This document shows, piece by piece, positions 51,733-52,632 of a DNA stretch of 64,000 nucleotides; position 1 is the first letter of the stretch, and each line of letters begins with the position of its first letter. The notes under the pieces were generated by a model. That model was given only the letters and a program-made list of their open reading frames with translations. It made no database searches and was not told the DNA's origin. The DNA is from Erythrobasidium yunnanense (Eukaryota; Basidiomycota; Cystobasidiomycetes; Erythrobasidiales; Erythrobasidiaceae). A program made the translations under genes and the position numbers. The stretch is taken from positions 1,709,111 to 1,773,110 of the forward strand of contig BCJC01000002.1 in the NCBI GenBank assembly GCA_001600175.1. Reading direction: 5' to 3'.

Positions 51733-52632
51733 TTACATCTCACCACATTCTGTCAACAACACAAGAAACAGTCAGCTCATGAATCCGAACGCGACTCGAG
51801 AGCTGCACGCACCCGTTATCCGCACTGTCAGCTTGGGACGGTTGTTCGGCCCCGTAGGTACGTTCTCTATCTTGCGGAGGATCAACATATTCTCTCCTCC
51901 ATCTTGGATCTTGCCAAAGACGACATGCTTGCCGTCCAGAAAGTCCGCTGAGGCCGTCGTAATGAAGAACTGGCATCCATTCGTATTCGGCCCCGAGTTG
52001 GCCATAGACAGGACTGTAGTCATTTCAGTAAGGTGTTTAGAACGATTGTAGAAGCGTATAAGCCTTACTGCCCGGCCCAGTATGCTTCATGGTGAAGTTC
52101 TCATCCTCGAAAGAGCCATTGTTGCCGTATATCGAGAACGTCCCTGTTCCATCGTTGTTCAGGAAGTCACCACCTGTGCGAAATGATGTTAGCTTGGATC
52201 CAGATGGTCCAGCGAGATCGGCCTAGTTGACTTATTGGACCATGAAATCCTTGATAACTCTACGAACACGATAACGCACATCAGCAGACGTTCCACATCA
52301 TCGTATTAGCTGTATCACCTATGGAAAGTCGCTCCTTTGAAGCCTTGTGGGATGTTGTTCTTTCTGATGATATCGACGACCAATTTGCACGCGTTTTGGA
52401 CACCAGTCTCAGCTTTTGTGCTGCTATCGTGCAAGCTCGTCCCGCGTATTCACCTCACTTCGCCAGTACATAGTTGCCGGAAGTTCTCAGCTGTTTTGGG
52501 GACGATATCGCTGAACAATTCCATCTTGAGGCGCCCTATCGAGGTTTCGCCGATAGAAAGGTCAAAGAAGACGATTGGGCGCTGGCCTGGCGCATCTATG
52601 CCATTAGGCGCTGTAGGTAACCCTGAAGCCAT
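51733..52632 (-). CDS. PPIH: cyclophilin H-like peptidyl-prolyl isomerase (spliceosomal), 190 residues
   Basis: Exons 52632-52454, 52363-52319, 52259-52236, 52175-52069, 52013-51813, 51749-51733. The sequence follows cyclophilin [89 protein letters not shown] and the end KLTVRITECGEM. Active-site residues (R of FHRV, F and Q of MVQGGDF, W replaced by another aromatic position) are mostly kept. In animals and fungi this isomerase binds the U4/U6.U5 snRNP protein Prp4. The intron 52235-52176 can only be removed in frame with AT...AC ends. The last intron (51812-51750) must be removed to give the standard ECGEM end. Confidence 0.92.
52176..52235 (-). other. probable AT-AC intron with U2-like sites, 60 nt
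   Basis: On the minus strand the exon ends ...ATGGTCCA, the intron begins ATAAGTCAAC and ends TTTCGCAC, and the next exon starts AGGTGGTGAC. This rebuilds FMVQGGDF exactly. A GT-AG reading does not work: the only nearby GT donors give stops or wrong phases, and the CACAG acceptor puts the next exon out of frame. GCTAACAT about 14 nt before the 3' end is a U2-type branch site, and the donor lacks the U12 ATATCCTT consensus. Confidence 0.75.

Follow-up and report, generated by a model that had tools for sequence, protein, structure and literature searches.

The third intron of the cyclophilin H (PPIH) gene of Erythrobasidium yunnanense is very probably a U2-type AT-AC intron that would be removed by the major spliceosome, both its splicing and the spliceosome responsible being deduced from sequence. 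The gene lies on the minus strand of the 64,000-nt stretch analyzed here (the window). Once its six exons are joined they encode a product of 190 aa containing MVQGGDF. Among solved cyclophilins the best match to this protein is human PPIH chain 1mzw_A (276.5 bits against 232.3 for the next; residues 18–190, E=1e-81), with the whole domain covered. Besides the third, the gene has four introns, all of the ordinary GT-AG kind and 55 to 90 nt long. The interval 52176–52235 had been put forward as an AT-AC intron of cyclophilin H by the sequence-only reading, and these coordinates proved exact, giving a minus-strand intron of 60 nt. Read from 52235 to 52176 it runs ATAAGTC...GCTAAC...TTTCGCAC, starting with ATAAGTCAAC. 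It splits the glutamine codon of MVQGGDF (CA/A GGT, slash at the junction), and its retention would give CAA TAA, an immediate stop.

Table 1. Features of the cyclophilin H gene (window coordinates) and further predicted AT-AC introns (contig coordinates); slashes mark exon junctions.
Feature	Coordinates	Strand	Junction or evidence
Six-exon cyclophilin H (PPIH) gene, from start to stop codon	51733–52632	-	Protein match to human PPIH
Intron 1, GT-AG, 90 nt	52364–52453	-	
Intron 2, GT-AG, 59 nt	52260–52318	-	
Intron 3, predicted AT-AC, 60 nt, phase 2 in Gln codon of MVQGGDF	52176–52235	-	Splice-pair enumeration, intronic scores, protein alignment
5' splice site of intron 3, ATAAGT	52230–52235	-	
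Branch site of intron 3, GCTAAC; 52189 is the likely branch A, 13 nt from intron end	52188–52193	-	
3' splice site of intron 3, CAC; following two exon bases AG	52176–52178	-	
Intron 4, GT-AG, 55 nt	52014–52068	-	
Intron 5, GT-AG, 63 nt	51750–51812	-	
p38-type MAP kinase (L123), predicted AT-AC, 61 nt, near gene start	C1:2510588–2510648		MADFVKLSIFGT/CFEVTTRY
5-Aminolevulinate synthase (L139), predicted AT-AC, 66 nt	C1:3849221–3849286		STDLID/VCRSYAPGF
Galactonate-dehydratase-like enzyme (L156), predicted AT-AC, 59 nt	C5:1659255–1659313		ICEMSWK/MHYN
Nitrilase (L133), predicted AT-AC, 70 nt, ATGAGT donor	C9:483680–483749		LSACQ/FAQQKDFP

Possible junctions between introns 2 and 4 were enumerated for nine kinds of end pair with introns of at least 35 nt, keeping products that retained the proper C-terminus and were no shorter than 165 residues. 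Among these splice pairs MVQGGDF was restored only by ATAAGT..CGCAC, which bears out the earlier claim that ATAAGT...CAC is the sole junction rebuilding the motif. The assembly reads CCAATAAGT at 52235/52236, and the AT-AC join brings ..GGTCCA to AGGTGGTG.. in the exons. A one-base slip to TAAGTC..ACA would yield the identical mRNA; we prefer ATAAGT..CAC because only this pair has known splice ends. Alignment with human PPIH is gap-free around the junction. The motif had been called invariant, which is slightly off, since human PPIH reads MIQGGDF. It had also been said that GT-AG options fail in frame; four enumerated GT-AG pairs do stay in frame, but all of them damage the conserved protein, each losing conserved residues through replacement or deletion of part of FMVQGGDF, and one relies on the poor donor GTCCAA. 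Finding G as the initial base of the intron, proposed as an observation that would overturn the AT-AC intron, is not a clean refutation: combined with an AG acceptor, that base leads to a stop in CAG TGG TGA. A small change would suffice for a canonical intron with unchanged protein, namely two additional bases where exon and donor meet, giving CAAG/GT..CACAG/GT.

We compared the splice signals of intron 3 with those of other introns of the genome. A small gene finder was trained on 264 kb of the genome, made up of the window and another stretch of 200 kb, and the comparison set was 304 introns with good flanks that it predicted in the same 264 kb; these are predictions only (294 GT-AG and 10 GC-AG, median length 58). 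With the terminal dinucleotides omitted, the summed intronic score of intron 3 stood at the 92nd percentile of the 304 predicted introns. Its donor positions +3 to +6, AAGT, tied the best score in that set, its acceptor stretch ranked at the 98th percentile and GCTAAC, its branch, at the 42nd; the exonic part of the donor (CCA) was weak, at the 23rd percentile. CTGAC or CTGAT was the best branch in 151 of the 304 predicted introns and CTAAC in 13. The 13-nt distance from branch to intron end was below the lower quartile (quartiles 14 and 20). Of 200,000 random 60-mers drawn from the sampled 264 kb, 13 reached the score of intron 3 over donor +3 to +6, branch and acceptor stretch. The donor has the G at +5 of U2-type 5' splice sites, and GCTAAC agrees with the U2-type branch of this genome. 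The intronic scores support the earlier interpretation of ATAAGT and the CTAAC branch as probable U2-type AT-AC signals.

Under this interpretation U1 and then U6 would recognize (A)UAAGU through positions +2 to +6, U2 would pair with GCUAAC, and the branch A would attack the first intron A. The second step would occur at CAC, where the first A and last C would fit together in place of the usual first G and last G. In yeast and human, the first and last intron bases are known to fit together in the second splicing step. A first-last base interaction in splicing is also mentioned in PMC2831892.

We searched the whole genome for similar introns with the pattern ATAAGTN(18-45)GCTRAYN(6-22)YAC, ran it again with an ATGAGT donor, and used the pattern read backwards as control. 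There were 63 ATAAGT matches at 54 sites versus 95 in the backward control, 88 ATGAGT matches at 82 sites versus 74, and 2 strict-pattern matches versus 4 (sites counted after merging rows that share a start). The AT-AC pattern thus showed no bulk excess genome-wide over the backward controls in its ATAAGT, ATGAGT or strict form. The gene finder, when permitted AT-AC ends, used them five times in 264 kb, intron 3 included, but used each of nine other end pairs two to six times; as this does not discriminate, we dropped it as proof of the class. Because the class is rare and shows no enrichment, each case has to be judged on its own protein.

Forty of the 54 ATAAGT sites and two of the 82 ATGAGT sites were inspected, leaving 14 and 80. 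Twelve (10 ATAAGT, 2 ATGAGT) were chosen by eye as intron-like, 20 were taken in list order over contigs C1 to C4, minus one that looked canonical, and eight were chosen for ATAAGTC; intron 3 and L003 complete the set. Inspected sites that are not named below were judged on coding score and by eye, without individual homology searches. Besides intron 3, four further clear AT-AC introns emerged, with junctions that restore proteins having solved relatives (Table 1). The kinase junction lies within 84 residues aligned ungapped to p38-gamma, the few residues flanking it being only partly conserved; we take this kinase to be HOG1-like. The 5-aminolevulinate synthase junction lies within 88 residues aligned ungapped to the best solved chain, 8eim_A; retention of that intron would leave the frame open and add 22 residues, and a GT-AG alternative would lose two. 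Against 3rr1_A the galactonate-dehydratase-like junction is gap-free, with one single-residue gap a few residues beyond, and against NIT4 the nitrilase is gap-free at the junction, with gaps farther along. In all four introns the branch matches GCTRAY and lies 17 to 22 nt before the intron end; their intronic scores fall at the 60th to 94th percentile. With such introns in conserved genes, a U2-like AT-AC class is likely real in this genome. The sequence-only reading had seen a curious extra in the snRNP-associated host protein of intron 3; this looks coincidental, the other four genes encoding one kinase and three metabolic enzymes.

L135 (C1:1191856–1191917) is likely a sixth AT-AC intron, both its flanks scoring well as coding sequence, but it has an AT-AG alternative and lacks a solved relative, and we left it uncounted. 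By eye, L003, the other strict-pattern match, is antisense to a long coding frame; L154, L157 and L160 make better sense with ordinary GT-AG ends; and at L145 the ATAAGT sits in an exon beside an ordinary GT-AG intron. No convincing AT-AC join was found at the other inspected sites. The 385 introns predicted per 264 kb extrapolate to ∼30,500 genome-wide, of which five AT-AC introns would be about 0.016%, a lower bound.

Might intron 3 instead be an assembly error, in which two bases were lost at the donor of an ordinary phase-1 GT-AG intron ending in CACAG? With those bases restored, the intron would be canonical and the protein unchanged. A canonical-looking CACAG/GT does lie two bases beyond the CAC of intron 3, and a loss in the strain or in the assembly would look alike. 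ACAG moreover ends 78 of the 304 predicted introns, so that an AC where it is needed, two bases upstream, is not unusual, and one cyclophilin paralog (L032, below) carries a phase-1 GC-AG intron at this place. Against such an error, a frameshift scan of ∼151 kb of predicted coding sequence gave no events at a strict penalty and three at a loose one, where planted two-base losses were recovered in 27 of 89 and 52 of 89 cases, respectively. Indel errors in the assembly are not frequent, although the bound is loose. Nor does a two-base donor loss apply to the four further introns, because the exon bases that follow them are TT, AT, TG and TT, never AG. The presence of those four introns in the same genome makes a sequencing artefact at intron 3 less likely, and we regard this explanation as improbable.

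A second alternative, to which we give slightly less credence still, takes the sequence as real and the gene as damaged: there would be no AT-AC splicing, and cyclophilin H would be lost or made as a variant through an in-frame GT-AG pair. Such pairs are available, as enumerated above, and fungi can probably do without cyclophilin H. However, the gene is otherwise undamaged, conservation of the protein is good right up to the C-terminus, and the variants would harm FMVQGGDF, in one case from a poor donor.

A U12-type intron removed by the minor spliceosome is scarcely credible, for although its AT-AC ends would be compatible and a 13-nt branch-to-end distance fits both U2 and U12 types, the donor is ATAAGT rather than the U12-type ATATCC and the branch AGCTAAC agrees with the U12 consensus CCTTAAC at only four of seven positions. 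That consensus is taken from PMC3033335.

Searches for the spliceosomal RNAs bear little on this question. U12 and U6atac gave no match by models in the genome, but U1 escaped this kind of search too: the Rfam model found no U1 in the whole genome, and the U2 match was doubtful (28.3 bits). PDCD7 was not found in the genome, and control genomes likewise gave no match. The snRNAs of this genome may be divergent, split or overlooked by the search. By eye, the U6 gene (L002, ∼1390–1735; G000:C3, near 382073) appears split by mRNA-type introns, one of 59 nt (GTAACG..CTACAG) directly 3' of ATACAGAGAAG and one of 56 nt (GTACGG..TCTTAG) after GCACAAG, with perhaps a further intron before ATTGGAACG and another after GATGACAC. 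The split would explain the poor Rfam score of U6. Introns in U6 are known in some fungi.

The origin of intron 3 was approached through its paralogs, by comparing ten cyclophilin loci of the genome by eye. Three of the ten have an intron within two bases of the intron 3 place, one in each phase: L032 in phase 1 (CAAG/GC..GACAG/GC), L031 in phase 2 (GT-AG, at the same place as intron 3; CA/GTGTGC..TTTCGCAG/GG) and L029 in phase 0 (CAG/GCGAAT..AATAG/ACT). Five (L025, L026, L027, L028 and L034) are intronless there, and L033 and L036 have introns slightly upstream. GC-AG introns are fairly common, at 16 of the 385 predicted introns in 264 kb, and were also seen by eye in L032, L036 and L029. The 3' ends of the L031 intron (reverse complement, ∼1315–1365; GCTAACTGTTATTTCGCAG) and of intron 3 (52193–52176; GCTAACATCATTTCGCAC) are alike, through either chance or shared origin.

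From a phase-2 GT-AG form like that of L031, two substitutions would lead to intron 3; from a phase-1 form, one loss of two bases would do so. We consider it possible, though not the likelier course, that a two-base donor deletion in a phase-1 intron switched GT-AG to AT-AC in a single step with frame and protein kept. The deletion would have removed one G on each side of the donor junction, the final base of the exon and the initial base of the intron, and an AC that already stood in front of the AG would have taken over as acceptor. The phase-1 intron of L032 speaks for this route, but the phase-2 GT-AG intron of L031 speaks for two substitutions. U2-type AT-AC introns are held to be trapped by the need for simultaneous mutation of both ends (PMC2831892). 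Fungal relatives were also sought among other contigs: there were none among viral contigs and one Streptomyces match among plasmids, and the best 80 of 499 genome-contig relatives all bore bacterial or archaeal titles, with no fungal one among those listed.

Animals are known to have U2-type AT-AC introns, an example being intron 21 of human SCN4A, an 'AT-AC type II' intron (PMC2831892, PMC7072748). Intron 3 resembles it in its AT-AC ends, G at +5 and U2-like donor, but is fungal, 60 nt long and in a cyclophilin gene; dependence on the major spliceosome is demonstrated for the SCN4A intron and inferred for ours. The AT-AC introns of Caenorhabditis elegans are thought to be U2-spliced because U12-type snRNAs seem absent (PMC3033335); they share the ends and the presumed U2 splicing, in an animal rather than a fungus. 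U12-type introns have AT-AC ends in common with intron 3, which lacks their ATATCC donor and their CCTTAAC branch.

In fungi, AT-AC introns are much less frequent than in plants or animals (PMC7072748). Ganoderma lingzhi has 13 (0.014%), one Sanger-confirmed, with U2 or U12 class unstated in the portions of that report consulted (PMC11590231); our lower bound of ∼0.016% is close to this figure. AT-AC introns are also reported in Fusarium graminearum, where the corresponding portions of the report state neither their class nor whether any was among the seven Sanger-checked genes (PMC3577648). Both fungi have the rare ends, as here; intron 3 is known by sequence and homology. Our literature search found nothing joining cyclophilin, AT-AC, intron and fungus. 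AT-AC introns were thus already on record from fungi, as were U2-type ones from animals, and the predicted intron 3 adds one more case.

These introns form a small, checkable set of U2-like AT-AC candidates in one fungal genome, in genes for conserved proteins, and standard gene prediction would break gene models at them. AT-AC introns are held to arise with difficulty, since the two ends have to change at the same time. A deletion origin, if true, would be a second, testable route that bypasses simultaneous mutations at both ends. GT-AG introns at matching places in related species would reveal how AT-AC introns arise.
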